31,687 nt of DNA, taken from the IMG/VR virus record IMGVR_UViG_3300042376_001976, positions 1 through 31,687 of that record. One strand, written 5' to 3'. Below are positions 1-22,405 of this stretch, piece by piece. The position numbers and the translations under genes were made by a program. Under the pieces are notes generated by a model. That model made no database searches, was not told the origin of the DNA, and saw only the letters and a program-made list of their open reading frames with translations. This DNA is from a virus. Each line of letters begins with the position of its first letter. Within the stretch, counting starts at the first letter, position 1.

Positions 1-998
1 ACGACGACGGTGCCGCGGGCGATGTGGTCGGGGTAGAGCTCCTGGATCTTTTTGACCACCGAGGGGGTGTCTTTGGGGTGGTACTCGTCGATGAAGTGGA
101 ACTCGTCGCCGCGGCGGACACAGACTTCGACGAAGCAGCAGCCGACGTTGAAGTCAATGCCGATGAAGAGGCGGTCGTCGGGCTGGACGACGGTGTCGGT
201 CCAGTGGAGGTCGCGGTCGAAGTAGGGGTAGACGGTGGTGGAGTTGAGGTTGGTGAATTGGCCTTCGAGGTAGGCGGCGAGGAGTTGGGGTGGGTCGTTC
301 TTGTAGAGGGAGTCGACGAAGCCTGGGGGGAGGTGGGGGTTGTCGAGGGTGCGGGCGCGGACGAGGTGGCGGTCGCTTTGGTCCTCGGCTTCGACGAAGG
401 TGCGGTACATCCAGCGGAAGCCCTCGGGGGTGCTGGCGACGGCGAGTTGGGGATTTTTGCCGCCGCGGAGGCGGGCGAGCATCATCTCTGTTGCTTTTTG
501 GGCGATTTCGGCCGAGGAGGTGTCGATTTCGTCCGCGATGCAATAGGAGAGGTTTTGGCCGCGGATGCGGTTGTAGGTCTCGGTCGCGCGGCAGAGCAGG
601 GTGACCGTGCCGCCGGGGACGTGCAACCGGTATTCGGGTTGGGGGGAGACGCGGAAGTCGTAGTCGATGCCGTTGGCGTCGAGGTAGTCGTCGAACGAGC
701 GGACCCAGACGTCGCGGATCATGATGTGCGTTGGCTCGAAGACCGCGGCGACCGTGTTGACGTTGTCGAGCGCGCGGAGGACAGCGAGGGCGCACAACGA
801 GTGGGTCTTGCCCGCGCCGAAGCCGGCGACGTAGCCGATGATCTTGCGGTCCGTGCAGTCGACGAACTCGCGCTGGGCGGGGAGGAGGCCGGCGTAGATG
901 CGCTCGCGGATTTGCTCGCGGGTCTCGCGGCACCGCGTGTTGGTGTTGATCGGAGGCTCGAGGCATTTGCCGCCTGGTATCGAGCCGAGGAGAGACAC
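1..998 (-). CDS. terL: Terminase large subunit, 3' end beyond window
   Basis: Packaging motor ATPase and headful or site-specific nuclease that loads DNA through the portal. About 332 codons are visible and the reading frame is still open at the left edge. A Walker A-type motif (GYVAGFGAGKTHS) lies at residues 55-67, a Walker B (YCIADEID) at 152-159, and an AST coupling motif at 188-190. The start of the RNase H-like nuclease domain (FIGIDFNVG) is at 278-286, with Asp282 the likely first metal ligand. The start is taken as GTG at 996-998, because an in-frame TGA lies seven codons upstream and no ATG intervenes. No clear Shine-Dalgarno is seen. A copy of the dispersed motif (1011-1030) sits just upstream. 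Identity as TerL is secure; the packaging type cannot be read from this part. Confidence 0.93.
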   Translation of the reverse strand, partial: MSLLGSIPGGKCLEPPINTNTRCRETREQIRERIYAGLLPAQREFVDCTDRKIIGYVAGFGAGKTHSLCALAVLRALDNVNTVAAVFEPTHIMIRDVWVRSFDDYLDANGIDYDFRVSPQPEYRLHVPGGTVTLLCRATETYNRIRGQNLSYCIADEIDTSSAEIAQKATEMMLARLRGGKNPQLAVASTPEGFRWMYRTFVEAEDQSDRHLVRARTLDNPHLPPGFVDSLYKNDPPQLLAAYLEGQFTNLNSTTVYPYFDRDLHWTDTVVQPDDRLFIGIDFNVGCCFVEVCVRRGDEFHFIDEYHPKDTPSVVKKIQELYPDHIARGTVV

Positions 999-1389: not shown

Positions 1390-1557
1390 GAATTGGCCAG
1401 GATCGCAGGCGCCGCCTGGGGTGTGCAGTGTAAAGAGTGGTTGCGTGGACTGCAGCATACGTGGCTAGGTAGCTTACAATTGCATCAGGTCAGGCCCCCT
1501 CCCCCGTTAGGTGAGGGAGTGCAGGGCCACCCACCACACACCACCACCCTTCACACC

Positions 1558-1785
1558 ATGGCTACCTACTCCGTCACCTGTTTTTTGGAGTATTCGGATT
1601 GTCTGTACTCCGGGTTTCGGCCCGCTCAGCAAGCCTGGCCAACACGCGTATACGGTGCCGCCGCGCGCCGCGCCGATGCTGTAGCGGCGGCCCTTGCAAC
1701 GTCCGATCCTGACGTGGTGGTGACCCGTGTCGTCTGCGCATCCGGCGAACTGCGCGGCCATCTCCCTGGCGGGCTTGCCGCCTGA
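1558..1785 (+). CDS. Small protein of unknown function, first cassette gene
   Basis: The 75-residue protein starts MATYSVTCFLEYSDCLYSGFR and is rich in Ala, Arg and Val in its second half. I do not recognise a family. ATG 1558 is chosen because the upstream part of the open frame is unlike protein and because a CACCACACACCACC-type leader precedes it. The 161-residue gene at 2005 has the same kind of leader, and neither has a Shine-Dalgarno. The next gene starts four bases after its stop, so they are probably co-transcribed. Base use is C-rich on the coding strand, unlike the genes on either side of the cassette. Confidence 0.55.
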   Translation: MATYSVTCFLEYSDCLYSGFRPAQQAWPTRVYGAAARRADAVAAALATSDPDVVVTRVVCASGELRGHLPGGLAA

Positions 1786-1789
1786 TCCG

Positions 1790-1963
1790 ATGCGCTACTA
1801 CCTAACCGCCGCAGCGGCTGCCCTCTCCATCGCCACTTGCGCCGCAGCCGTCGCCACCACTGACGCGATCAACACTCACCTAGCGCTAACCGCATGCCGC
1901 GTAGAAGCCGAACTGGCCAACCTTTCCCCGGCCTACTGCGAGGCCCGCGAGCAACGCGACTAG
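1790..1963 (+). CDS. Small secreted or membrane-anchored protein
   Basis: The 57-residue protein begins MRYYLTAAAAALSIATCAAA: a short charged start, then an Ala-rich hydrophobic stretch of about 17 residues containing a Cys. This looks like a signal peptide, a lipoprotein-like leader or one membrane segment. The remainder is polar with a CEAREQRD tail. It starts four bases after the previous stop. Such a protein could act at the envelope, for example in superinfection exclusion, but nothing in the sequence proves this. Confidence 0.5.
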   Translation: MRYYLTAAAAALSIATCAAAVATTDAINTHLALTACRVEAELANLSPAYCEAREQRD

Positions 1964-2004
1964 GTCGCATACCCACTTACCACCACACCACCACACCGCA
2001 CGCC

Positions 2005-2490
2005 ATGAGCTACGGAATCACCCAACAGCGAGTCGACGACCAGAACCGCATCAACGCACTCGCAAACGAGATCGAGGGGCACCTGTTGCGCCTGCTCAGC
2101 CCCTGGCAACAGAAGAAAGCTTTTAAGGTCACCGGCTGGAAAGGAAAGGTTGCCGCCCTCGAAACCGCGTTCGATCAATACTGCGAGGGTCACGGTTACA
2201 ACGTGCCGGCCACGGAGGACACCGAAGCCGCCACGGTATGGGTCAACCTTTACCGCCAGCACAACAGCGTTACCGCGTCGGTGCAGCTGCTGCTCAACAG
2301 CGGCCTACGTGCCGAGCTGTACCTGGGCCGCACTGACGACGCCGGCGTTCTCACCCACCTAGCCGACGGCTACCAGCGCCGCACTGATTACACGGTGGCC
2401 GAGATCGAGGGGGCGCTCGAGCGCGCCTATCAGCTCGAGGAACAGGCCCGCCAGCTGCGCAGCTCGGTGCGCGATTTCCAACGTCGCTGA
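2005..2490 (+). CDS. Hypothetical protein, helical, 161 residues
   Basis: The protein runs from MSYGITQQRVDDQNRINALA to a C-terminal helix rich in Glu, Gln and Arg. ATG 2005 is preceded by a repeated ACCACACC leader (about 1979-2000), as at the first cassette gene, not by a Shine-Dalgarno. The composition suggests mostly alpha-helix with a possible coiled coil near the C-terminus (residues about 130-158). No catalytic motif or membrane segment is visible, and no family is recognised. It is followed seven bases later by the 275-residue gene in the same direction. Confidence 0.65.
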   Translation: MSYGITQQRVDDQNRINALANEIEGHLLRLLSPWQQKKAFKVTGWKGKVAALETAFDQYCEGHGYNVPATEDTEAATVWVNLYRQHNSVTASVQLLLNSGLRAELYLGRTDDAGVLTHLADGYQRRTDYTVAEIEGALERAYQLEEQARQLRSSVRDFQRR

Positions 2491-2497
2491 TCACGCC

Positions 2498-3325
2498 ATG
2501 CACGCAACCCTTACGGATCGGATCAACCGCCTGTCAGCTTGCGCCGGCCAGTGGATCCTCGACCTACGCGACAGCGGCAACCGCGGCTACGACCTACACC
2601 ACCTGAGCGCGGGCTACAGCGCCGCCGGTTATGGCACCATCCGCGACCCTGAGACCGCGCTGCGGTTCTGCACCGATCAGCACTGGCGGGAGGCGCGGCT
2701 GCTGTTTAGCTGCGACTACCTAAACGACGACTGCAGCTGGCCCGGCGGCTACGACGCCCCCTCGATCTATCGCAGTAACGCCCGAGTCTTTCGCGATGAG
2801 TACAGAAGCGAGCTCGAGCTGGCGGATGGTGACGCGGACGGTATCGCGCTCGATATCCGCTATGTCACAGAAGAGATGCTCGAAACAATCGAAGCGCTGC
2901 AGCAGTATCCGCTGATTAGCGAAGACGACCATAGCGAGCTAGAGGTCGACCTTCAAGACGAGGCATGGGAAAGCTGGGCAGAGTCCGATTGGCTCGGCTA
3001 TGTCACCACCGCGCTAGCTGAGTTTGCCCCTGTCAGTTGCGACGACCCGGACGGCTGGGCAGAAGACGCGATGGGGCGCGCAGATCGCTCGAACCTGTTC
3101 GATCTGTTCCGAGCTTGCTGCGAGCAAACCGGCACGTACTGGTCGGAAGAGTCGGACGGCGCGCAGTGGATCAACCTCGAGCGCGCTGCGGAAGGAATCG
3201 ACCGGCACGACCTCGAGGTCTTAACCGGCCTGCGTCTTCTGGCGCCCGATCAAACGTGGCGCACCGAGTCCTATCCGTGGCCCGGCGCTGCAGCCGCCCC
3301 TCTCGTGCTGGAGGTGCAGTCTTGA
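2498..3325 (+). CDS. Acidic hypothetical protein, 275 residues
   Basis: Largest cassette protein, strongly acidic and rich in Trp and Tyr. A central segment (about residues 147-175, ISEDDHSELEVDL followed by DEAWESWAESDW) reminds me of a widespread unannotated phage/plasmid protein family, but I cannot name it. There is no signal peptide, membrane segment or obvious active site. It follows the 161-residue gene by seven bases. Its stop overlaps the TTG start of the next gene by two bases, and its last codons carry that gene's Shine-Dalgarno. The acidic character would fit DNA mimicry or a protein inhibitor, which is speculation. Confidence 0.75.
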   Translation: MHATLTDRINRLSACAGQWILDLRDSGNRGYDLHHLSAGYSAAGYGTIRDPETALRFCTDQHWREARLLFSCDYLNDDCSWPGGYDAPSIYRSNARVFRDEYRSELELADGDADGIALDIRYVTEEMLETIEALQQYPLISEDDHSELEVDLQDEAWESWAESDWLGYVTTALAEFAPVSCDDPDGWAEDAMGRADRSNLFDLFRACCEQTGTYWSEESDGAQWINLERAAEGIDRHDLEVLTGLRLLAPDQTWRTESYPWPGAAAAPLVLEVQS

Positions 3326-3480
3326 ACTCACCTAAATCTCACCGCCTCTCCATCGTGGTTCCCGCCGCCATCGCCGAGCGGTTGCGAGAGCTAGCCGAGA
3401 TGGAGGGCCGCAGTATCAGCAACCTAGCGGCGAGCCTGTTGCGGGCCGCCTTGCGTGATGGGCAGCCGGAACCGCAGTAG
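3322..3480 (+). CDS. Ribbon-helix-helix (CopG-like) DNA-binding protein
   Basis: The 52-residue protein has the RHH layout: a short beta strand (HRLSIVVP), helix 1 (AAIAERLRELAEMEG), and helix 2 after an N-cap (SISNLAASLLRAALRDG). RHH proteins act as dimers that insert the paired strand into the DNA major groove, often as autoregulators. The start is TTG 3322, set by an excellent Shine-Dalgarno (GGAGGTG, 3310-3316) five bases upstream; without TTG the domain would lose its strand. It overlaps the preceding stop and, at its 3' end, the start of the TerS-like gene. It is the obvious candidate regulator of the cassette; the dyads at 1308-1389 are candidate sites. Confidence 0.7.
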   Translation: MNSPKSHRLSIVVPAAIAERLRELAEMEGRSISNLAASLLRAALRDGQPEPQ

Positions 3481-3910
3481 CGAGGCGGAGCTCCGCCGCC
3501 GCGTGGATGCCGCCGCGGCGCTCCTTGCTAACGGCCTGCCGCGCACCGCAGCCGTAACGCAACTGGCGGAGCGTTACCGCGTCGACCGCCGAACCGCTCG
3601 GCGTTACGTGGCGGATGCCGCCGCCGAGCTCGCCGATGAGATCGGGGCCGCCGACCTGGCGGCCGCCCTGGCGGAATCGGTGGAGAGATTGAACCGCCTC
3701 TCCCACCAGGCCGAGACCCGCGGGAACCTAAATGCCGCGGTTGGCGCGGCCAAGGCGGCAGCCGGAACTCTGGCAGCGATCTATCGAGCCGATACCCTGC
3801 AGGCCGCGCGCCTTGCCGGCCACACCATCGCGGTAGCGGAACCCGAGGAACCCACAGACCGGGAGCGACGCCGCTACCGGCAAAGCATCAGCCCACCTAT
3901 CCCCTTTTGA
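3458..3910 (+). CDS. TerS-like helix-turn-helix protein of the cassette
   Basis: The 150-residue protein has an N-terminal helix-turn-helix (about residues 22-52, with DRRT at the recognition helix) followed by long Ala-rich helices, the layout of phage small terminase subunits. It aligns without gaps by eye to the leftward protein at 4743-5117, with about 20 of 50 identities over the first half including VD/ID-x-AA, NG, ER and DRRT. Small terminases bind pac/cos DNA and recruit TerL. The start is ATG 3458 (GTG 3455 also possible); the gene overlaps the RHH gene by 23 bases. The C-terminal tail (about residues 115-150) is Arg/Glu/Pro-rich and absent from the second protein. A plain transcription regulator is the alternative. 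Confidence 0.6.
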   Translation: MGSRNRSSEAELRRRVDAAAALLANGLPRTAAVTQLAERYRVDRRTARRYVADAAAELADEIGAADLAAALAESVERLNRLSHQAETRGNLNAAVGAAKAAAGTLAAIYRADTLQAARLAGHTIAVAEPEEPTDRERRRYRQSISPPIPF

Positions 3911-3912
3911 TC

Positions 3913-4236
3913 ATGGCCAGTCGAGATTGGGCGCGCTTCGCCCCGAGCCTTTCCCACCTAGCAGCCACCATCGAAGAATTCGAGCCAGTTATTTGCGGGT
4001 GGAGTAGCGGCCCGCAACCACAGGCTGCCGGTTATGACCCCGCCGAGCCCGAGCACCTTTCTATCGACGTCGATACCCCATGGCAGGACCCGAGCCCGTG
4101 GATCCACATAACCGCCGAGGGCTGCTACTGGTGGGATGATGACGGCAGGTGGGAGTGCTCTCACGGTGACCTGTGGGCCTTCCTTAGCCAGATCCCTCGC
4201 CGATTGCACACGTTCGGCAGGCAGACCGAAGAATGA
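3913..4236 (+). CDS. Small acidic Trp-rich protein, last cassette gene
   Basis: The protein has 107 residues from ATG 3913; a TTG at 3907 overlapping the previous TGA is an alternative start. It is acidic and rich in Trp, with a CYWWDDDGRWECSHGDLWAFL segment near residues 72-92. It contains Cys and His but no regular metal-binding spacing. No family is recognised. It closes the rightward cassette: a strong intrinsic terminator begins four bases after its stop. Confidence 0.6.
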   Translation: MASRDWARFAPSLSHLAATIEEFEPVICGWSSGPQPQAAGYDPAEPEHLSIDVDTPWQDPSPWIHITAEGCYWWDDDGRWECSHGDLWAFLSQIPRRLHTFGRQTEE

Positions 4237-4239
4237 CCC

Positions 4240-4263
4240 GCGGCGCTTAGGCGCCGCTTTTTT
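4240..4263 (+). terminator. Strong intrinsic terminator of the cassette
   Basis: Perfect 7-bp stem GCGGCGC/GCGCCGC with loop TTAG (4247-4250), followed by six T residues (4258-4263). A second GC-rich hairpin with a shorter T-run follows (about 4265-4290) and may back it up. It starts four bases after the last cassette stop codon. Confidence 0.9.
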
Positions 4264-4516
4264 GTGCGCCCTGCGAGGGGCGCGCTTTTATGACCGTTGC
4301 GTCCGGTTTCGGGGGATCGGCCGTAGGGAGGCGACCCCCGCGAGATGGGCCCACAAGCGGCGCGGCTGCGGTGAGCGTATGGGACAGCGAGGGGCAGGAT
4401 GGGCACCGCGGCGCCGATCCTGGCGGGGCTGAGATGGCGCTACCCATAGCGTCCCGGCCGACCCCGGCGCTACCTATGGTGCCCCCAGATATAGCGTCCG
4501 CCGGCAGCTGAGCACT

Positions 4517-4557
4517 ACATAGGCCGGGGCCTATGTGTCACTTAGTGGGGCTAAGTG
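4517..4557. repeat. Pair of adjacent hairpins
   Basis: First stem ACATAGG (4517-4523) with CCTATGT (4530-4536), six-base loop. Second stem CACTTAG (4539-4545) with CTAAGTG (4551-4557), five-base loop. Both are perfect 7-bp stems separated by two bases and lack T-runs. They could be a protein-binding site, part of a cos/pac site, or structured RNA. Confidence 0.5.
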
Positions 4558-4634
4558 CGAAGCGCTCAGGCATCGGCTTGCTGGCGCATCCGTTGCAGCT
4601 AGCGCCGGGCGTAGCGCCGTAGGCGCGGGAGGCT

Positions 4635-4728
4635 ATGAATGGCGAATTTCGCTGTGAACGCAAAAAGCGGCCAATGAATGGCCGCTGGAGCTGGGTGGCT
4701 ATGAATGGCCGACACCCTGATGAATGGC
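4635..4728 (+). repeat. Four direct repeats of ATGAATGGC
   Basis: Exact 9-base copies start at 4635, 4674, 4701 and 4720, all in the same orientation, spaced 39, 27 and 19 bases apart. The first and third extend to GGCTATGAATGGC (13 bases identical). Four copies within 94 bases is far above chance. The second copy lies in the loop and arm of the leftward terminator. The array lies just downstream of the TerS-like gene. Confidence 0.65.
4662..4686 (-). terminator. Intrinsic terminator for the leftward TerS-like gene
   Basis: On the minus strand the stem AGCGGCCA/TGGCCGCT (8 bp, five-base loop) is followed by TTTTT (complement of the A-run at 4662-4666). It lies 57 bases downstream of the TerS-like stop codon. 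If this protein is the true TerS, the terminator separates it transcriptionally from terL, which is unusual. Confidence 0.75.
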
Positions 4729-4742
4729 GAAAACCCTTGCCG

Positions 4743-5117
4743 CTACTGGTTTCTGGGGTTGAGGTTTAGCAGCTCGGTGATCAGGCGCATGGCGCCGATG
4801 GCGTCAGAGCCGCGGCCGTTGGTCATACTCATGTCCAACACTTTTTGCATTGCGCCAACCATTTCTGCAACCTTTTCTCCTCTATCCATCCCACACAATT
4901 CGCGCGCTAATTGTTTGCGTGCTTCGTGGGTCCTTCTCTCTACCGTTCTACGGTCAAGGGGCCACCTCTCCGTCATGATCTGCCGGATTTGCCATGGCTG
5001 TTTGCCGTTGCAGATCAGCTCGGCAGCGTAGTCAATCTGCTCCGTTATCTCCACTGAGTTCCAACCAACCCGCTTTTGTTTTTGGGGCTGCTCCTGAGGA
5101 GCAATGTCCTCGCTCAC
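4743..5117 (-). CDS. Small terminase subunit-like DNA-binding protein
   Basis: The 124-residue protein has a helix-turn-helix region (about residues 25-65, with DRRTVERR at the recognition helix) and a helical C-terminal part (AIGAMRLITELLNL) typical of phage small terminases or HTH regulators. It is related to the cassette protein at 3458-3910. Start GTG 5117 gives MSEDIAPQEQ; the Shine-Dalgarno is weak (AAGG about eight bases upstream). It lies on the terL strand, upstream of terL in that direction, as expected for terS, but the rightward cassette separates them. A transcription regulator of the operon remains possible. Confidence 0.65.
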   Translation of the reverse strand: MSEDIAPQEQPQKQKRVGWNSVEITEQIDYAAELICNGKQPWQIRQIMTERWPLDRRTVERRTHEARKQLARELCGMDRGEKVAEMVGAMQKVLDMSMTNGRGSDAIGAMRLITELLNLNPRNQ

Positions 5118-5182
5118 TGGAGATACCTTGAACGCTTACTCGAATGATACATAGCTCGGTAGCACGAGTGGATCGGTTTCCG

Positions 5183-5410
5183 CTAATTGCTAACTAACTG
5201 AGTAATTAGGTGCTCCACCCCCGAAGGGGGTGTGAGGGGTGAGTAGAGCCAGGCCATGGCGGCGGCGAGGGTGGCGAAGTAGCGAGGGGTGGTGGGGTTC
5301 GAGGGGGTTGTGGGTGTGGGGGGTTCGAGGGAGACGGTGTAGCCCTTGGCGGTGGCGTAGCAGCGCGCTCTGAGGGGGCTAGGGGCGCCGGGAAGGGGGG
5401 TGGAGGTCAT
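5183..5410 (-). CDS. Small hypothetical protein, end of thyX operon
   Basis: The 75-residue protein has a Pro/Thr-rich middle and a more ordered C-terminal part (YFATLAAAMAWLYSPL). The central Pro-Thr run suggests a linker. ATG 5408-5410 is chosen because the upstream open frame is Arg/Pro-rich antisense noise. It follows the 41-residue gene by ten bases and is the last gene of the leftward operon. No family is recognised and no T-run terminator is seen after it. Confidence 0.5.
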   Translation of the reverse strand: MTSTPLPGAPSPLRARCYATAKGYTVSLEPPTPTTPSNPTTPRYFATLAAAMAWLYSPLTPPSGVEHLITQLVSN

Positions 5411-7880: not shown

Positions 7881-7896
7881 CGGCCGTTAGGCCGCG
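7879..7896. repeat. GC-rich hairpin with stop codon in its loop
   Basis: Perfect 7-bp stem CGCGGCC/GGCCGCG with loop GTTA. Read on the minus strand the loop is TAAC and holds the TAA stop of the ssDNA-binding protein gene. It is the same arrangement as at 6918-6939 and abuts the dispersed motif. Confidence 0.6.
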
Positions 7897-8474
7897 AAGG
7901 GGTTGCCGCCGGTGAAGAGGGCGCCGAGGTCGGCGCCTTTGTCCTGGGCCTCGGTCCAGGCGGCGGTGATGCGGGCGGCGAGGGAGCCGGTGGCACGGGT
8001 GGGCTTCATGTCCACCGCGTACTTGGTGTTCAGCTTCTCGCCGGTGCGGAGGATCGAGACGTCCCAGCTCGAGAGGTCCGAGTAGTCGGGGTCCTCGGTC
8101 AGGCGGGCGAGGTCGCGCAGGACGGTGGTTTGGGTGGGGGCGAAGACCTTGACCTCCTCGGCGTCGTAGTCCCACACGAACATGGCGGCGAACTTCTTGA
8201 GGGCCGGGCGGCCGTCGCGCATCGCCAGCTGGCCGCCGAGCTCGGCTTCCCACTCGGCGATCAGCTCGGGGTCGGGTTGCTTGGCCGAGCGGCGAGGGGC
8301 CATGCCGCCCTCGGCCTTCTCGATCCATGCCTCGAAGCCGGTGATGGGGGCGTCGCTCAGGATGTGGAAACGAGTGGTGGCGCCGTCCGCCAACTTGGAG
8401 AGGTTCAGGAAACCGCCGCCGGCGTTGTCCTTGGCGGCCAGCGAGGTGGTGAAGTCTGCTTTGAAGAAAGGCAT
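7887..8474 (-). CDS. Probable single-stranded DNA-binding protein
   Basis: The 195-residue protein starts MPFFKADFTTSLAAKDNAGG and has a beta-rich centre: TTRFHILSDAPITGFEAWIE, then AAMFVWDYDAEEVKVFAPTQTTVLRDLARL, then WDVSILRTGEKLNTKYAV. It ends in a flexible tail with GNPFAA. This resembles OB-fold phage ssDNA-binding proteins that also carry the KVFAPTQ-type strand-helix segment. The usual acidic tip is absent. The partner genes (nuclease, ThyX, replication block opposite) fit. I infer function from fold-like pattern, not a diagnostic motif. A candidate promoter lies at 8528-8556. Confidence 0.65.
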   Translation of the reverse strand: MPFFKADFTTSLAAKDNAGGGFLNLSKLADGATTRFHILSDAPITGFEAWIEKAEGGMAPRRSAKQPDPELIAEWEAELGGQLAMRDGRPALKKFAAMFVWDYDAEEVKVFAPTQTTVLRDLARLTEDPDYSDLSSWDVSILRTGEKLNTKYAVDMKPTRATGSLAARITAAWTEAQDKGADLGALFTGGNPFAA

Positions 8475-8586: not shown

Positions 8587-8886
8587 TCACACAGCGGCGG
8601 GGGTTGGCGGCACTTGCGGCGCGGTGAGTTGTCCCCGAAGAGAAGAGAGGTCGAGGTGCTTCTGTTGCGCGTAGCGCAGCAGGATCTCGAAGACCTCGGA
8701 GCGGTTGAGACCCTGGGTTTCGCCGAGGGTGGTGGCGAGGACCCAGGCGGTGTCGGTCAACGAGAGGGTGCGTTGGCGCTTCTCCTCCTGCCAGACGGTG
8801 CGGCGTTGGGTGCCGCCCATGGGACGGGATGCGGGGAGGGTCACGCCAAGGGCGCCGGCGCTGCCGGCGGTGTTACGTGTGTCCAC
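8587..8886 (-). CDS. Probable ribbon-helix-helix regulator
   Basis: The 99-residue protein has a central RHH-like unit: RQRTLSLTD (strand), TAWVLATTLGETQG (helix 1), LNRSEVFEILLRYAQQK (helix 2 with Asn-Arg-Ser cap), between disordered ends. RHH dimers regulate transcription by major-groove binding. The start is taken as GTG 8886; an in-frame ATG at residue 23 is an alternative that keeps the whole domain. It is the first gene of the leftward operon that ends at 5183. A dispersed motif copy ends three to four bases before the GTG, so it may autoregulate; that is inference. Confidence 0.7.
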   Translation of the reverse strand: MDTRNTAGSAGALGVTLPASRPMGGTQRRTVWQEEKRQRTLSLTDTAWVLATTLGETQGLNRSEVFEILLRYAQQKHLDLSSLRGQLTAPQVPPTPAAV

Positions 8887-8909
8887 TATACCTAGGCGCG
8901 TAACTACAC
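8887..8909 (-). promoter_or_regulatory. Dispersed intergenic motif, RHH gene copy
   Basis: On the minus strand the core reads GTAGTTACGCGCCTAGGT, 16 of 18 matches to the copy at 12203-12220. It fills most of the 35-base gap between the stop of the 226-residue gene and the RHH start, and it points in the direction of transcription. Confidence 0.6.
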
Positions 8910-8921
8910 ACTGGGGTTGGG

Positions 8922-9602
8922 TTATGCGTCGGTGAGGCGGGCCCAGAGGTCGCTGTCGGTGGTGTTGATCAGCTGGGCCAGGGCCGGGAGGTCGGCGAGG
9001 ATCGTGTCGCCGGGGACCGTGCGGCCCATCAGGAGGGGCTCCAGCGAGGGGGCGGTGGTGCGGAGCTCGGGCATCTCGCTCAGGAAGTCGCGACCGAGGG
9101 CGGCCAGGCCGAGGCGGAGGTGGCGGCCGAGGCGGGCGCTGTACTCGTCCTCGAGGTTCATCGGGATCTCGCGGGTGGTGTCGAGGTGGAGGTCGAGTTG
9201 GCCCGTCGCCACGAGGAAGAGCTCGGCGGGGCCGAGGGGTTGGCCCGTGGGGCCAACCATGGGGTCGAGGCCGAGCCAGATGTAGCGGAGGCTGTCGGGG
9301 AAGCGGGGGGCGTCAACGTCCGGGTAGACGCGGGAGCCGTCGGCGCGGAGAGCCGACGCGGCGAGGGAGAGGTTGAGGAGGCCGAGGACGAGGAGGCACT
9401 TGGGGGAGGGGTCGCGCATCTTGCCGGTGGCGAGGCCGCCGATCTGCGAGGAGTGGAGGTGCTGGGGGCCGGGGAAGATGGCGGCGGCGAGCTTGATCCA
9501 CTTGGGTTGGGTCATGCCGCGTTGGCGGGAGCAGCGACGCCACAACGTCTGGAGTTGGTTGCGGCCGAGGTCGACGGAGTCGTTTGGGTTGGCGTAGTGC
9601 AC
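8922..9602 (-). CDS. Hypothetical protein, possible DNA-binding regulator
   Basis: The 226-residue protein has an N-terminal helical region (about residues 9-80: LGRNQLQTLWRRCSRQRGMTQPKWIKLAAAIF and LHSSQIGGLATGKMRDPSPKCLLVLGLLNLSL) that resembles a variant helix-turn-helix domain. The C-terminal half is mixed and rich in Leu and Pro. It is transcribed divergently from the primase-helicase, with tandem repeats and a large dyad in the shared 103-base control region. A repressor or replication regulator would fit, but no diagnostic motif is seen. The start is GTG 9602, without a clear Shine-Dalgarno. Confidence 0.65.
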   Translation of the reverse strand: MHYANPNDSVDLGRNQLQTLWRRCSRQRGMTQPKWIKLAAAIFPGPQHLHSSQIGGLATGKMRDPSPKCLLVLGLLNLSLAASALRADGSRVYPDVDAPRFPDSLRYIWLGLDPMVGPTGQPLGPAELFLVATGQLDLHLDTTREIPMNLEDEYSARLGRHLRLGLAALGRDFLSEMPELRTTAPSLEPLLMGRTVPGDTILADLPALAQLINTTDSDLWARLTDA

Positions 9603-9609
9603 GAGGGGG

Positions 9610-9641
9610 TTACTTGCGTATGTAGTTACTCACGTATCTAG
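9610..9641 (+). repeat. Tandem 16-bp repeats in the divergent control region
   Basis: TTACTTGCGTATGTAG (9610-9625) is followed directly by TTACTCACGTATCTAG (9626-9641), with 13 of 16 bases identical. The second unit shares TTACTCACGTA with 12889-12899 and belongs to the dispersed motif family. They lie between the divergent genes at 9602 and 9706 and are good candidates for operators or iterons. Confidence 0.6.
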
Positions 9642-9655
9642 CACAGCTGCTACGT

Positions 9656-9695
9656 TGCGTCGGGCCTACGTGATCGCGTAGGCCCGATCTACGCA
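9656..9695. repeat. Large dyad upstream of the primase-helicase gene
   Basis: A perfect 10-bp inverted repeat, CGGGCCTACG (9661-9670) and CGTAGGCCCG (9677-9686), has a six-base spacer. Outer arms TGCGT and ACGCA extend it imperfectly. It ends about ten bases before ATG 9706, without a T-run. An operator or origin hairpin is likelier than a terminator. Confidence 0.6.
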
Positions 9696-9705
9696 ATGTC
9701 TTCAG

Positions 9706-11991
9706 ATGGAAGCGAGTGAAGCGCTCACCAACGAGAGCGTGATGTCGGAACCCGCGCCGCAAGGCGCGGGGGCGGGGGAGTTGGTGCGGGCGGTAAGGCG
9801 GTTGCCGGATCGGCCGTGGTTCAACGTCGTGTACCGCAAGGGGACCGTGTCGCCGAGTGGGCAGGAGCACCGGGGCAAGTCGCCGTTTGGTGGGCCGTAT
9901 AAGCGCAGGACGCCGGCGCAGTGCGAGGTGCTGTTGAAGAAGCGGCCGGAGGACTTTGGGGCGGTGTCCGTGGCGCTGGGGCCGGATTCGGGGTTGTGCT
10001 GTCTCGATATCGACGTGCCAGAGGCGTTCCGCACCCTCGAGCACACCCATGGCTTTAGTCGACAGAAGCCGTATGTCACCTCGAGGAAGCCGGCGGGGAC
10101 GTGCTTCAAACAGTTCTTCCGCGTGCCCGAGAGCGAGTGGGACGGCCTGCACGAGGTGGATGCGGGCTCGTACCAGATCCTGTGGCACGGGAACATCGCC
10201 GTCATCGAGGGGGTGTACCCCGGCAGCTCGTGTGGGACCTACCCCGAGGGGGTGTATCGCCTCATCGGGGATCTGGGTGAGGTGCCGGAGGCGCCGCGCT
10301 GGGTGATCGAGGAGATGCGGGGGCGGGCGGTGAAGGACACGTCGTTCTCGCAGGCGTTGGGGAAACTGTTTGCGTCGTTTTGCGATAACCAGAGCGACGA
10401 GGAGGCGGCGGAGTTCATTCGCAGGCAGCTGCAGTGGATTCCGCCGCAGGGGACGCTGCCGGAGTCGCTAGAGGCCGAGGGGGTGACGCCGAGGAAGTTT
10501 TGGTTGACGGTGGGGATGGCGATTCACTACCGGCTGCCGGATGAGGTGGGGCGCGGGTTGTGGCGGGAGTGGTCGAGGCGGGATACGGATTACGCCGACG
10601 AGTGGGAGTCGGGGCGGGCGGAGGCGTACCTGGAGCGGCAGTGGGAGACGTTTAAGCGGGATGGGGGGCGGCAGGGGCGGCCGGTGACGCCGGGGACGCT
10701 GTTTTGGTTGGCGGAGCAGAACGATCCCGAGCGCAAACGGTTTCCCGAGGGGCAGCGGGAGGCCATCGAGGGGGTGGTGCAGCAGGCGAGGTCGGATGCG
10801 GCGGCGATGCGGCACGCGCAGCTGATTCACGCGATGGAGGAGACGTACGAGCAGAACGCGGAGAACGCGAGCTTGATCACCTTCAAACTGCAGGAGATTG
10901 CGCGCGAGTACGGCAGAAACGTGACGGACATCCTTGGGATCTGGGCCGCGCACAAACAGGCCACGCTGCAAGAGAGAACCGGCATCAGAACCCCCGAGGA
11001 TTTGTGTGGGTTGCCGGGGCGCGAGTACCTGCTGCCGGGCTTGGTGCAAAAGGCCGCCGTATACGTCCTCGCCGGAGCCGGAGGCTCCGGCAAAACCTCC
11101 TTCTGCGGGGCGTTGGCGCGGCACGTCATCGAGGGGAGGAGCATCGAGGTGAAGGGGCATTGGCGGCCGGTGCAGAAGGGCCGCGTCCTCTGGGTCAGCT
11201 CCGATACCAACGACGTGGACTTTCGCGACGTGCTCGTTAACGCCGGACTCATGGCGGTCGACGAGGGGGGTGGGTACGCGGCCCTGTGGGAGCGGGGGGC
11301 GCTCGACTACTGGCCGGGCTTCCAGTGGACGATGGTGACGGCGCTGGAGCGGAGGATCCGACGCTTCAAGCCCGACCTCGTCGTGATCGACAGCTTGGCG
11401 TCGTGTAACCGCACGACGGGGATCGACGAGAACTCCGCGGCGGTCGCCAACCCGCTCTACGAGTTGCAGCAGTTGGTGCTGGATCAGCCCGTCTCCTTCT
11501 TCGTCCTCCACCACCTCAACAAGGGGGGCGCGATCCGTGGCTCCACCGCGATTGAGGCGGCGTGCTCGAGTGTGTGGCGGGTGCAGAAACCCTCCGAGGA
11601 GCAGTGCCAGGCCAATGGCCTCAACGCTGCGACGGATCGCCTCATCGCCCCCGGCTCCAAAAACCGGGGGGTGGATCAGAAGCTTCTGTGCCGGTTGGAT
11701 CGCACCTCTGACGTCTTCAAAATCCTGGAGTTCTACGAGCGGGAGGCCAGGACGGGGGGTACGTGCATGGATCGGGTCGTCAACCTCATCGACACGACGG
11801 GACCCCACTCGAGGGCGTCGCTTTGCGACTTGATTGGGTCGGAGTACAGCCAAGCCGCCATCGAGAAGGCTCTGGTGAAGGCCAAGGAGGCGGGACTCAT
11901 AAGACGCATGAAGGGAGGTGTGAGGGGGGCTCCCTTCGTTTACGAGTCCCTCATGCGGGGGGTGAGAGAGAAAGTACGAGAAACTAACTAA
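9706..11991 (+). CDS. Primase-polymerase/helicase replication protein
   Basis: The 761-residue protein joins two domains. The N-terminal part (about residues 25-210) resembles the bifunctional primase-polymerase (AEP) fold, with the metal-binding CLDIDV motif near residues 99-104 and a conserved basic segment KPYVTSRKPAG. The C-terminal part is a RecA-like hexameric helicase: Walker A GAGGSGKT near 456-463, Walker B DLVVIDS near 557-563, then FFVLHHLNKGGAIRGSTAIEAA with the sensor and arginine-type region. The fusion primes and unwinds phage DNA. It starts at ATG 9706 (ATG 9742 is an alternative) with no strong Shine-Dalgarno, after tandem repeats and a dyad. The iteron-like cluster follows its stop. 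Confidence 0.88.
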   Translation: MEASEALTNESVMSEPAPQGAGAGELVRAVRRLPDRPWFNVVYRKGTVSPSGQEHRGKSPFGGPYKRRTPAQCEVLLKKRPEDFGAVSVALGPDSGLCCLDIDVPEAFRTLEHTHGFSRQKPYVTSRKPAGTCFKQFFRVPESEWDGLHEVDAGSYQILWHGNIAVIEGVYPGSSCGTYPEGVYRLIGDLGEVPEAPRWVIEEMRGRAVKDTSFSQALGKLFASFCDNQSDEEAAEFIRRQLQWIPPQGTLPESLEAEGVTPRKFWLTVGMAIHYRLPDEVGRGLWREWSRRDTDYADEWESGRAEAYLERQWETFKRDGGRQGRPVTPGTLFWLAEQNDPERKRFPEGQREAIEGVVQQARSDAAAMRHAQLIHAMEETYEQNAENASLITFKLQEIAREYGRNVTDILGIWAAHKQATLQERTGIRTPEDLCGLPGREYLLPGLVQKAAVYVLAGAGGSGKTSFCGALARHVIEGRSIEVKGHWRPVQKGRVLWVSSDTNDVDFRDVLVNAGLMAVDEGGGYAALWERGALDYWPGFQWTMVTALERRIRRFKPDLVVIDSLASCNRTTGIDENSAAVANPLYELQQLVLDQPVSFFVLHHLNKGGAIRGSTAIEAACSSVWRVQKPSEEQCQANGLNAATDRLIAPGSKNRGVDQKLLCRLDRTSDVFKILEFYEREARTGGTCMDRVVNLIDTTGPHSRASLCDLIGSEYSQAAIEKALVKAKEAGLIRRMKGGVRGAPFVYESLMRGVREKVRETN

Positions 11992-12229: not shown

Positions 12230-12526
12230 GTGAGTGAGAAGCACCTCCTCGCTTTCGAGGAGTTCCACCGGGACAATCCCCACGTCTATGAGCGGCTGAA
12301 GCGGTTGGCGTTCCGCTTGAAAGTGCGGGGGGTGCAGCGGTGGGGGATCAAGGCCCTCTACGAGGTGCTGCGGTTCGAGGAGGCGCTGGCGACGACGTCG
12401 AGTGCGGGGACGTACCGCTTGAACAACAACTTCACGGCGCTGTACGCCAGGAAGTTGATGGAGGCGGAGCCGGACCTCGAGGGGTTCTTCGAGCTCAGGG
12501 AACGGAAGCGGTTAGCCAGCGGGTGA
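12230..12526 (+). CDS. Conserved phage protein of unknown function
   Basis: The protein has about 98 residues, with the pattern AFEEFHRDNPHVYERLKRLA, then GIKALYEVLRFE, then YRLNNNFTALYARKLMEAEPDLEGFFELRER. I recall this as a common small protein of phages and prophages without known function; the order FH-NP-VY, LNNN-YAR and GFFE-R is its signature. GTG 12230 is preferred (MSEKHLLAF), but GTG 12224 is possible. The start lies right behind a dispersed motif copy. Its last 32 bases overlap the convergent HNH gene. Confidence 0.75.
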   Translation: MSEKHLLAFEEFHRDNPHVYERLKRLAFRLKVRGVQRWGIKALYEVLRFEEALATTSSAGTYRLNNNFTALYARKLMEAEPDLEGFFELRERKRLASG

Positions 12527-12803
12527 TGGCGGCTTCGCGGAGGCCGCAGTGGAAGGGCTGGGCGCGGAACCACTCGAGCCAGGGGCGGCTGCCTTTGGAG
12601 CTCTGGCAGCGGAGGCAGCAGCTGACGAGGTTGTGGCGTTCGGTGGGGCCGCCGAGGGCTTTGGGGTGGACGTGATCGAGGGTGGGGGTGCGGCCTAGGG
12701 GCTCGTCGCAGTACCCGCACCGGTAGTCCCAGTGCAGGTGGATTTGGTCACGGAAGGAGCGGCGGGTGATCAGGTGGGTTTCCGCGATCAGGGCCCTGCG
12801 CAC
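12495..12803 (-). CDS. HNH endonuclease
   Basis: The 102-residue protein has a zinc-binding CGYC pair (near residues 29-32), the catalytic LDHVHPKALGG segment, then RHNLVSCCLRCQSSKGSRPWLEWF with the second Cys pair and the C-terminal Asn/His region. This is a compact, apparently complete HNH nuclease. It is leftward inside a rightward replication block and overlaps the previous gene's end by 32 bases, close to polA. This is typical of a free-standing homing endonuclease, though a packaging or restriction role is possible. Start GTG 12803. Confidence 0.88.
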   Translation of the reverse strand: MRRALIAETHLITRRSFRDQIHLHWDYRCGYCDEPLGRTPTLDHVHPKALGGPTERHNLVSCCLRCQSSKGSRPWLEWFRAQPFHCGLREAAITRWLTASVP

Positions 12804-17251: not shown

Positions 17252-17521
17252 ATGCCACCTCTTGGACCTAAAGAAAATCGGAAGGTCATGGATGAGGGAT
17301 ACGAGCTGCTAATTGAGCTTGCGAACCGATATCTCAAAAACGAAGGACCACCTGCTCAACCTCCTGCTTGGTTACAACCACCCGCTCCACAAAGCGGTGA
17401 TATAGCTCTGTCAACTCCTCGTAGGAGGCGTGTTCGTAGAGGCGCGGATCGCGTAGTGCTACCAGGAGCTCGGTCGGGACAGAGGGCACTTGCGATAAAG
17501 ACTCCAGGCGTTGCTGTTTAG
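17252..17521 (+). CDS. Small protein overlapping the serine recombinase convergently
   Basis: The protein has 89 residues. The first 30 (MPPLGPKENRKVMDEGYELL, then a helix) look like real protein, and the rest is Pro/Arg-rich and is antisense to the recombinase end for 188 bases. The main support is an excellent Shine-Dalgarno, GGGGAGGTG (17235-17243), eight bases before the ATG. Either it is a genuine overlapping gene, or a rightward gene whose original 3' end was replaced when the recombinase module arrived. Confidence 0.45.
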   Translation: MPPLGPKENRKVMDEGYELLIELANRYLKNEGPPAQPPAWLQPPAPQSGDIALSTPRRRRVRRGADRVVLPGARSGQRALAIKTPGVAV

Positions 17522-18644
17522 CCGCGATTGCGTCTTCAAGGTCAGGGTCGCCGAGGGCTTGGAGAGTGGCGATGGAGGCGCGGAGCTCGGCTACCTCCGG
17601 GCTGTCCTGGATTGGGGCGTTGGTTGCGAGGGAGTCGGCGTGCGCAGCGAGGGTGTGGGCGATCGCGCCGGCGATGAGGGATTCGTGGGTGCTCTTGTAC
17701 TGCTGCTCGCAGCCGCGGGTTCGGCACATCACCGAAGGGATCGTGCGGGAACCGGCGTAGCTCATGGCTTTGCCGCAGCTGCCGCAACGACAAAGGCTGG
17801 TTAAGAGCCGCTGCTTGCTTTTACTGTGTCGTCCCCACATACGTCGGTTGGCATCAAGTTGACGCTCGATGGCCGCGAATTCTGTGTGCGATATAAGGGC
17901 AGCGTGGGTATTCCAGGCAATATCTACAAACACGTGGTTCTTCTGTTGGCCGTAGCCGAGGCCACCGCGAAGTACGGGGTTCAATAGCCATGCCTTGACG
18001 GCACGGCAGCTGTGGAGCGGGATGTCGCCCCGTCCTTCTGATGCCCAGACGTCGAGGGCGGTGTTCATGCGCCAGTCCCGCGCTGCCAAAATGCGCAGAA
18101 ATTGCTGCGCGCGCTCCCACTCGAGGGGGTGGGGTTCGAGGGCGGTGCGGTCGTCGTTGATGCGGTAGCCCCATGGGGCTTTGCCGCGACAGGGCATTCG
18201 GCGCTTTCGGCGCTCGGCGAGGCCGGAGCGGATGCGCTGGGAGAGCATTCGACTCTCCATCTCGGCCATGGTGGTCATGATCCGGCTCATGACGAAGCCG
18301 GTGGGGGTCACGCTCTCGATGGTGCCGCCGTCGAGGGCGGTGATGACGACGCCCTTGCGCGCCGCGAAGGCGATGGCGGCGTCGGTGTCGGCGGCGTCAC
18401 GACCAAGGCGGTCAACTCGAGTGATGACGACCTCACGGGCACGGCCGGTCGCGATCAGCTCGAGGAGCTGCTGGTAGCCGTCGCGGTCAGTGGCGCGCCC
18501 GGACTGGATGTCCTGCAAGACCAGATCGACGCCGGCAGCTTCGATGCGGGCGCGCTGGTTTTCGAGTGCTGCGAGCTGTTCTCCGCTGGCGGTGGACACG
18601 CGCACGTAGCCAACACGCTGCTGCTGCCTCGCGGGTTGCGACAC
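17334..18644 (-). CDS. Serine site-specific recombinase
   Basis: Cuts and rejoins DNA through a 5'-phosphoserine link. The 436-residue protein has a resolvase domain (residues 10-150) with VGYVRVS, the catalytic Ser17, and the ITRVDRLGRDAAD active-site segment (74-86). A recombinase domain follows (PWGYRINDD to about 270), then a zinc ribbon (C287, C290 and C307, C312) and a C-terminal helical part. This is the large-serine-recombinase order, at the short end of the size range. Start GTG 18644 has GGGGAG six bases upstream. It could be a second integrase, an excision recombinase or a DNA inversion enzyme. A dispersed motif copy (18700-18717) lies upstream. Confidence 0.93.
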   Translation of the reverse strand: MSQPARQQQRVGYVRVSTASGEQLAALENQRARIEAAGVDLVLQDIQSGRATDRDGYQQLLELIATGRAREVVITRVDRLGRDAADTDAAIAFAARKGVVITALDGGTIESVTPTGFVMSRIMTTMAEMESRMLSQRIRSGLAERRKRRMPCRGKAPWGYRINDDRTALEPHPLEWERAQQFLRILAARDWRMNTALDVWASEGRGDIPLHSCRAVKAWLLNPVLRGGLGYGQQKNHVFVDIAWNTHAALISHTEFAAIERQLDANRRMWGRHSKSKQRLLTSLCRCGSCGKAMSYAGSRTIPSVMCRTRGCEQQYKSTHESLIAGAIAHTLAAHADSLATNAPIQDSPEVAELRASIATLQALGDPDLEDAIAAKQQRLESLSQVPSVPTELLVALRDPRLYEHASYEELTELYHRFVERVVVTKQEVEQVVLRF

Positions 18645-21502: not shown

Positions 21503-22405
21503 TCAAATCACGGGCACTTCGTACTCCGCCGTTGTGGCTGCGTAGTGCTTCCAGATCACTTCAGATGTGTTCCCAGCCCAGTTGGCTGCCTGTGTCACTG
21601 GGATGCCGGCCTCCAGCCAGCGGCTGATCGCAACGTGCCGCAGGTCATAGGGCCGGTAGCGCTTCTTGATCAACCCGGCGCTGTGCAGTTGGCCCATGCG
21701 CTTGATGAAAAAGCTCTGGAAGGCGAGGCGATTCCACGGGAACACATAGTCGCTATCGCGTGGCAGGCCGGCCAAGATCTCCTGCGCTCTGGCGTTGAGC
21801 GGCACCCAGCGTTTCTTGTTGGTCTTGGTGCTGTTCTTATGGCCGTGGGTCAGCGTGAAGTTGCTGTGGATCAGCACCCGCTCGCCGTCAATGTCGGCCC
21901 ACTTGATCGCTCGGGTCTCACCCGTGCGCAACGCGGTCTGCAGCATGAACTCGGCAAACAGCGCCCAGTTCACGCCCCGGTAGGTGAGCTTGGCCTCTAA
22001 CGCCACAAGCACCAGGGGAATCTCCTCGCGGGGAATGACGACCACCTCGTGCTCACCCTGCGGAGCCTTTGGCATCCTGAAGTTGGCGACCGGGTTGCGA
22101 GGCAGGATCGCTACATCTTCTGCAGCAGCCCAGCGGTACAAGCTGCGCACATACATGCAAACGCGCCGCGCAGCCTTCTCGGGCTTCTGCTGCAACAGCC
22201 AGGTCAACACGCGCCGGCCTTCAGGGAACTCCTGAATCGGACAACGCGCAAGCCATTTGCTGACTTGGGCGTAGTCGCTGGTGAGGCTGGTGGGGCAGAG
22301 CGACACGCTGCGCTCTGCCTTGAACAGCTCCCAGGCTTGAGAAAGTGTCTGCTCGCAGACGTGCGCAGTCATCCCTGCGCGATAGGCTTCAACCATCGGT
22401 TCCAC
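21503..22405 (-). CDS. int: Tyrosine recombinase, phage integrase
   Basis: The 300-residue protein has an N-terminal core-binding domain (residues 12-110) and a catalytic domain. Visible residues: Arg160 in TALRTGETRAI; Lys in TKTNKKRWVPL (near 195); YDLRHVAISRW, with Arg256 and His257; GNTSEVIWKHYA, with the Tyr288 nucleophile. Two usual positions differ: Tyr253 replaces the first His of the HxxR box, and Asn279 sits where His or Trp is common. Start GTG 22405 follows an in-frame TGA, with ATG 22396 and 22372 as options. An adjacent frame upstream reads RDQIQYEWNRWLKPIA, so a shortened N-terminus cannot be excluded. It implies lysogeny. Confidence 0.92.
   Translation of the reverse strand: MEPMVEAYRAGMTAHVCEQTLSQAWELFKAERSVSLCPTSLTSDYAQVSKWLARCPIQEFPEGRRVLTWLLQQKPEKAARRVCMYVRSLYRWAAAEDVAILPRNPVANFRMPKAPQGEHEVVVIPREEIPLVLVALEAKLTYRGVNWALFAEFMLQTALRTGETRAIKWADIDGERVLIHSNFTLTHGHKNSTKTNKKRWVPLNARAQEILAGLPRDSDYVFPWNRLAFQSFFIKRMGQLHSAGLIKKRYRPYDLRHVAISRWLEAGIPVTQAANWAGNTSEVIWKHYAATTAEYEVPVI

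Follow-up and report, generated by a model that had tools for sequence, protein, structure and literature searches.

A phage operon set against its terminase genes pairs exchangeable cargo with a TerS paralog whose C-terminal end resembles the SSB tip

In a window of viral DNA of 31,687 nucleotides (the whole stretch analysed here, positions 1 to 31,687 of IMG/VR record IMGVR_UViG_3300042376_001976), seven tightly packed rightward genes, which we call c1 to c7, occupy positions 1558-4236 between two leftward genes, the terminase large subunit gene terL (3..998; its C-terminus cut by the contig edge; PHROG 2, 3e-31) and terS, the small terminase gene proper (4743..5117). One of the seven itself encodes a TerS-like protein, which raises the question of what a second TerS does on the opposite strand of a terminase locus, and whether the genes around it arrived as an acquired element, possibly a satellite remnant, as an earlier note on this DNA had proposed. 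A codon-based gene caller returned exactly these seven rightward open reading frames (ORFs) between terL and the leftward gene at 4743-5117, all with coding-like codon use, and so confirmed the arrangement described in that note. We find that the seven genes form a resident operon, and the best explanation overall, to which we give about an even chance of being right, is that it combines exchangeable cargo with a TerS-derived protein, c6, that displays tips like those of the single-stranded DNA-binding protein SSB.

The TerS-like protein of the cassette is c6 (3458..3910, plus strand), and profile-profile comparison upheld this earlier assignment. The c6 profile (A1) aligned with the profile of the TerS encoded at 4743-5117 (A2) over 96 columns (hhalign Prob 97.4, E 1.2e-11), and some single c6-TerS pairs reached 8e-9 by BLAST. 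The two proteins agree in sequence and also in domain order, a helix-turn-helix (HTH) followed by helices; an AlphaFold2 (AF2) model of c6, with a mean predicted local distance difference test score (pLDDT) of 84.6, begins with three helices that form the HTH and continues with a helical hairpin, after which a disordered tail, modelled at low confidence, runs to the final Pro-Phe. With VIA, c6 matched the N-terminal and the helical parts of the G20C TerS separately (Z 6.8 and 6.4), a result that is supportive only, and a PDB sequence search with the c6 and TerS profiles gave nothing significant. A weak PADLOC match of c6 to DrmMI (5e-4) was taken as HTH noise. In a joint tree c6 and TerS form two separate clades with support of 100/99, and both are retained in nearly all genomes; the duplication is therefore ancient, and both copies have been kept. 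The HTH residues of c6 are invariant throughout its retention in more than 40 contigs. Taken together, the profile comparison and the tree show that c6 arose long ago by duplication of the TerS of the phage itself.

What distinguishes c6 from TerS is its C-terminus, where a linker that varies widely in both length and sequence leads to a final Pro-Phe in 36 of 46 members (28/31 in a first set, or 28/32 with the shorter copy of contig L029 included, and 8/14 complete members in a second, later set). The common ends are PPDDLPF, SPDIPF, DEPDLPF, EDLPF, PPDCPF and PDPPF, so that the chain often closes with DLPF, DCPF or DPPF. Among 966 called proteins, the 26 that end in PF are all c6, and no TerS does so. 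The terminal proline is encoded through all four of its codons and the phenylalanine through both, while stop codons and 3' flanks vary; selection therefore acts on Pro-Phe at the level of the protein, and we rejected an origin of this end as a DNA-level or overlap artefact. In E. coli SSB the last nine residues, MDFDDDIPF, bind more than 17 partner proteins, and RecO receives the final Pro-Phe of this C-terminal tip (SSB-Ct) in a pocket of hydrophobic character (PMC7913777). Our comparisons show that c6, unlike TerS, carries a selected C-terminal Pro-Phe resembling the SSB tip, which suggests that a TerS copy was adapted to deal with the DNA machinery of the host. A connection between any terminase protein and the SSB-tip motif was not reported in the open literature that we searched. 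The window also encodes, in a neighbouring block, a phage SSB-like protein (7887..8474, minus strand; weak match to phrog_1192, 0.0014), and this protein and its homologs carry a near-invariant GGNPF a few residues before the C-terminus, possibly a partner-docking tip of their own.

Does the operon that carries c6 belong to these phages or did it enter from elsewhere? To gather relatives, viral contigs were scanned with c4, terL and c6, yielding more than 40 related contigs. In every contig showing both terL and c6, c6 and its operon lie on the strand opposite to terL, and this opposition is kept from 99% terL identity (contig L015) down to about 60%. Two gene orders occur, terS / operon / terL as in the window and operon / terS / terL, in which terS, co-oriented with terL in the window, lies directly upstream of it. 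A single change in the terL tree separates them, with modest support (83/70), and a distant terL lineage (L051, L075 and L078, about 22% identity) shares the order of the window. In a subgroup of the L003 type c4 is co-oriented with terL, and no c6 was found there. The nearest cultured phages by terL are the cyanophages KBS-S-2A, S-H1 and MED4-184 (43-47%); the two of them that we inspected have a small co-oriented gene directly upstream of terL and no intervening opposite-strand operon. A DNA-level search of positions 1400-5200 against INPHARED gave no match, neither c6 nor TerS was found among sequenced phages, and a pattern scan of 84,980 bacterial and archaeal species genomes returned neither c6 nor terL.

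Base composition was part of the earlier case for an acquired cassette. The base counts quoted in the earlier note are exact (13 G to 31 C, 15 G to 24 C and 32 G to 10 C), and the cassette is indeed the lowest-skew 2.7-kb stretch of the window, with an overall GC skew of -0.066 over 1558-4236 against a mean of +0.17 in the rest (250-bp windows) and a next lowest value of -0.002 near 21.9 kb; however, the inversion is weaker than the quoted examples imply, and strongly negative values are confined to about 1500-2250. The dip extends beyond the cassette over the leftward TerS gene (-0.11), and a part of it reflects the flipped strand, because leftward neighbours such as terL (-0.30) and thyX (-0.29) also have more C than G on their coding strands. 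The G+C content at third codon positions (GC3) is 0.75 in the cassette and 0.66 in TerS, against 0.81-0.94 in the remaining leftward neighbours. Since nearly all relatives measured (22 for skew) share the skew dip and the lowered GC3, we rejected the skew as a sign of recent insertion. The same opposite-strand locus and the same dip recur across relatives, and therefore the operon is resident and old in a clade of uncultured phages that have marine cyanosiphoviruses as their closest relatives by terL; with gene order and skew largely shared from L015, at 99% terL identity, to relatives at about 60%, a recent acquisition is contradicted, as is the satellite origin proposed earlier.

What has been acquired is the cargo. 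Compared with L015, whose terL is 99% identical, the DNA of the window matches at 1-1544, at 1809-1990 (c2), at 3331-3844 (the regulator gene c5 and c6) and from 4237 on, these segments being 95-97% identical, and the cargo between them differs: c1, c3, c4 and c7 in the window; DUF7227 (Pfam, 1.1e-74), families f25 and f63 and others in L015. Around c1 the segment 1545..1808 is swapped, as the alignment ends at 1544 and restarts at 1809. The fixed elements are c2 at the front (1790..1963, plus strand), a small membrane-type protein with a hydrophobic N-terminus whose family (f28, 8 members) recurs among the first genes, and at the rear c5 (3322..3480, plus strand) followed by c6 and a terminator. 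c5 begins with TTG, overlaps the start of c6 and is a ribbon-helix-helix (RHH) regulator, as the earlier note had supposed (Pfam RHH_5, 1.1e-11); an RHH gene lies just upstream of c6 in many relatives. The operon is closed by an intrinsic-terminator-like hairpin with seven G-C pairs and a run of six T (4240..4257, plus strand), followed by a second such hairpin at 4264-4285; the structure seen earlier is thus present, though in a simple scan such sites are about as common as expected by chance (4 vs 3.0).

The cargo genes of the window, all on the plus strand, are c1, c3, c4 and c7. c1 (1558..1785, 75 amino acids) is the weakest ORF of the cassette, with a low coding score and no family match; c3 (2005..2490, 161 amino acids) and c7 (3913..4236), an extra and acidic (-12) cargo gene 3' of c6, are absent from L015, and a search for c3 relatives in viral contigs found none. 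c4 (2498..3325, 275 amino acids) is strongly acidic (net charge -35) and has a weak match to phrog_3906 (3.7e-8); its AF2 model (pLDDT 77.6) gave no PDB match of note. Phages that share only about 22% identity in terL carry copies of c4 at 65-69% identity, and c4 therefore moves horizontally. It is not tied to the strand of the cassette either, for in contigs L095 and L096 it adjoins terS and has the orientation of terL. We conclude that the operon is exchangeable cargo between fixed ends and that only the cargo is acquired. The notion of an acquired element holds to the extent that the cassette is a distinct unit with cargo partly acquired, as in the L015 swap, but not as a recent insertion or a satellite remnant. 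Because antirestriction protein ArdA (PF07275) is among the cargo of relatives (L035, L059 and L065, with 1.6e-24, 4.6e-22 and 5.5e-20), the whole looks like an accessory operon of the anti-defence type.

A further constant of the locus lies at its convergent junction, where an iteron-like array of four TGAATGGC copies (4636..4728, plus strand) adjoins the terS stop, with copies at 4636, 4675, 4702 and 4721 (spacing 39, 27 and 19). TGAATGGC occurs 5 times in the window against 0.82 expected, and 0 of 100 shuffles reached 5. Repeats of the form TGAATGSS, in 3-10 copies, are found at this junction in 32 loci, downstream of c6 and immediately past the stop codon of the adjoining leftward gene, which is terS in the window order and a Cas4/exonuclease-like gene otherwise; only two other TGAATGSS clusters were seen, one inside the exonuclease gene and one nearby. 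The array is a candidate recognition site for packaging, for replication as an origin, or for regulation. When the array unit and the HTH recognition helix were compared by eye, no clear covariation emerged. Just 3' of the c6 terminator, many loci (e.g. L015, L022, L051 and L066) hold one more conserved element, TTTTATGTCC, after which several of them have another TATGTCC, and GGACATAA is 25-fold enriched in the same place.

How might these parts work together? The operon is transcribed against the terminase and late genes. In the picture that we favour it would be expressed early, and its early products may shield the incoming DNA and take over the host, in keeping with the ArdA of relatives; the acidic c4 could be a DNA mimic. 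c6 would oligomerise like TerS, a property it would have inherited, and would bind phage DNA through its HTH, possibly at the TGAATGGC array. Several SSB-like tips displayed on such an oligomer could then recruit or sequester SSB-interacting repair and replication proteins on phage DNA. In its most specific form, as a ring-forming, DNA-binding, multivalent mimic of the SSB tip that hijacks or blocks the host's SSB-interacting proteins from within an early anti-defence operon beside an iterated array, this proposal for c6 is a tentative one, and we regard it as rather more likely to be wrong than right.

Several observations weigh against this picture. The c6 of the window ends in SISPPIPF, without the acidic residues that are typical of SSB tips and that most relatives have, and 10 of the 46 members lack the PF end altogether (DDYPH, PPL, DPTP, NNNP, PMPWD and PELIG types). 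The ends were compared with the E. coli tip (DDDIPF), from which the SSB tip of the phage's own host may differ. The top Foldseek match of c6 in the PDB is the G20C small terminase, with an E of only 1.6, below significance. The array is also kept in the L003-type phages, where no c6 was found; it therefore need not be a c6 site, and the protein that recognises it may be TerS or a different one. PADLOC and Pfam scans of the window found no ArdA and no recognised anti-defence gene, and c1, c3, c4 and c7 match no family of known function.

The alternative that survives best takes c6 for a second packaging factor, which mixes with TerS or replaces it in rings and so alters the DNA that is packaged or blocks competitors. 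Rpp of phage-inducible chromosomal islands (PICI) offers a precedent, as its heterocomplexes with TerS can redirect packaging (PMC6739421), and the paralogy of c6 with TerS spans the whole HTH and helical region, c6 adjoins the terminase genes in all these phages, and where the gene order is that of the window, c6 and terS have the iteron-like repeats between them. However, c6 is co-transcribed with opposite-strand cargo rather than with terS and terL, the end that distinguishes its tail occurs in no TerS, and the retention of both paralogs in nearly all genomes suggests that they have different jobs. We consider such a packaging role unlikely, though well worth keeping in mind.

If c5 and c6, with their RHH and HTH folds, were instead the operon's own transcription regulators, the Pro-Phe tail would serve some other contact, for example with RNA polymerase or in self-assembly. 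Two DNA-binding folds at the end of the operon, one of them recognised at 1.1e-11, and repeats near the 3' junction that could be operators agree with this. Their position at the 3' end by the terminator, with the repeats downstream rather than at a promoter, would be unusual, and a plain regulator leaves the conserved, exposed C-terminal Pro-Phe unexplained, so that this too seems improbable to us.

The turnover of cargo, the many genes without known function and the many short contigs that begin or end here could also mean a hypervariable, moron-type accessory locus without a common function, in which c6 is a degenerating TerS duplicate; given the presence of c6 in more than 40 contigs, its invariant HTH residues and the selection that codon variation reveals at the final two positions of the protein, we hold this to be very unlikely. 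A PICI-like satellite remnant inserted between terS and terL, as the cassette's own TerS homolog, RHH regulator and deviating skew might suggest, was rejected as scarcely credible, since 1558-4236 holds no integrase, primase/rep module or att sites (the integrases of the window lie elsewhere), all seven genes lie on one strand without divergent master regulators, the cassette measures only 2.7 kb against about 12-15 kb for PICI and lies within a phage genome that has terL as well as genes for tail and lysozyme, the same locus and skew run through the phage clade to 60% terL identity, and c6 is a single clade confined, as far as found, to these phages.

Other features of the window and its relatives may be recorded here. 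The genes at 17334-18644 and 21503-22405 of the window encode two integrases, one a serine recombinase (Resolvase, 4.6e-28), the other of the tyrosine type (phrog_1, 7.6e-39), and the minus-strand gene at 12495-12803, flanked by those for primase and polA, encodes an HNH endonuclease (HNH_5, 1.1e-8). In four relatives (L034, at 8720-9923, L035, L036 and L037) roughly 1 kb of DNA interrupts terL once about 65 residues have been encoded, and in three of the four this DNA encodes an opposite-strand HTH/HNH protein (HNH_3, 8.5e-7 in L034); the insert resembles an intron or a homing-endonuclease insertion. Beside terL in many relatives lies a gene of family f9 (e.g. L010, 10416-10607), whose 63-amino-acid product combines one hydrophobic helix with an HTH_23-type domain.

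Should the SSB-tip reading of c6 be true, a packaging protein would have been turned by exaptation to manipulating the SSB hub of the host, and its tail would yield a short, testable peptide. The terS-terL junction of this clade would likewise be a place to mine for anti-defence genes (c3, c4, c7, DUF7227 and others), and the TGAATGGC array offers a candidate packaging or origin site.

Among known systems, TerS itself, as represented by the G20C protein and by the phage's own TerS at 4743-5117, shares with c6 the HTH, the antiparallel helical hairpin and the position at the terminase locus, whereas c6 lies on the opposite strand in a cargo operon, has a long disordered tail ending in Pro-Phe and coexists with a real TerS. 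With PICI that carry terS (the SaPI type) and with the TerS-binding Rpp (PMC6092414, PMC6739421) the operon has in common a second TerS-like protein near packaging functions, but it is a resident phage locus without int, rep or att and without any sign of a satellite genome. The SSB-Ct tip is matched in c6 by a disordered linker of variable length followed by an acidic/Leu-Pro-Phe end of the chain (DDLPF, PDIPF and EDLPF in relatives), although c6 has no oligonucleotide/oligosaccharide-binding (OB) fold, bears the tip on a TerS-type HTH protein and is less acidic, with no acidity at all in the window copy. In plasmid leading regions, too, ArdA and SSB genes occur together in anti-defence islands (PMC11541004). 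Our operon sits at a phage terminase locus, has no oriT and bears its SSB-like tip on a paralog of TerS instead of having an SSB gene, but it shares with these islands the clustering of accessory genes, ArdA among them in relatives, on one operon-like strand, fixed borders and a putative SSB-related function alongside.

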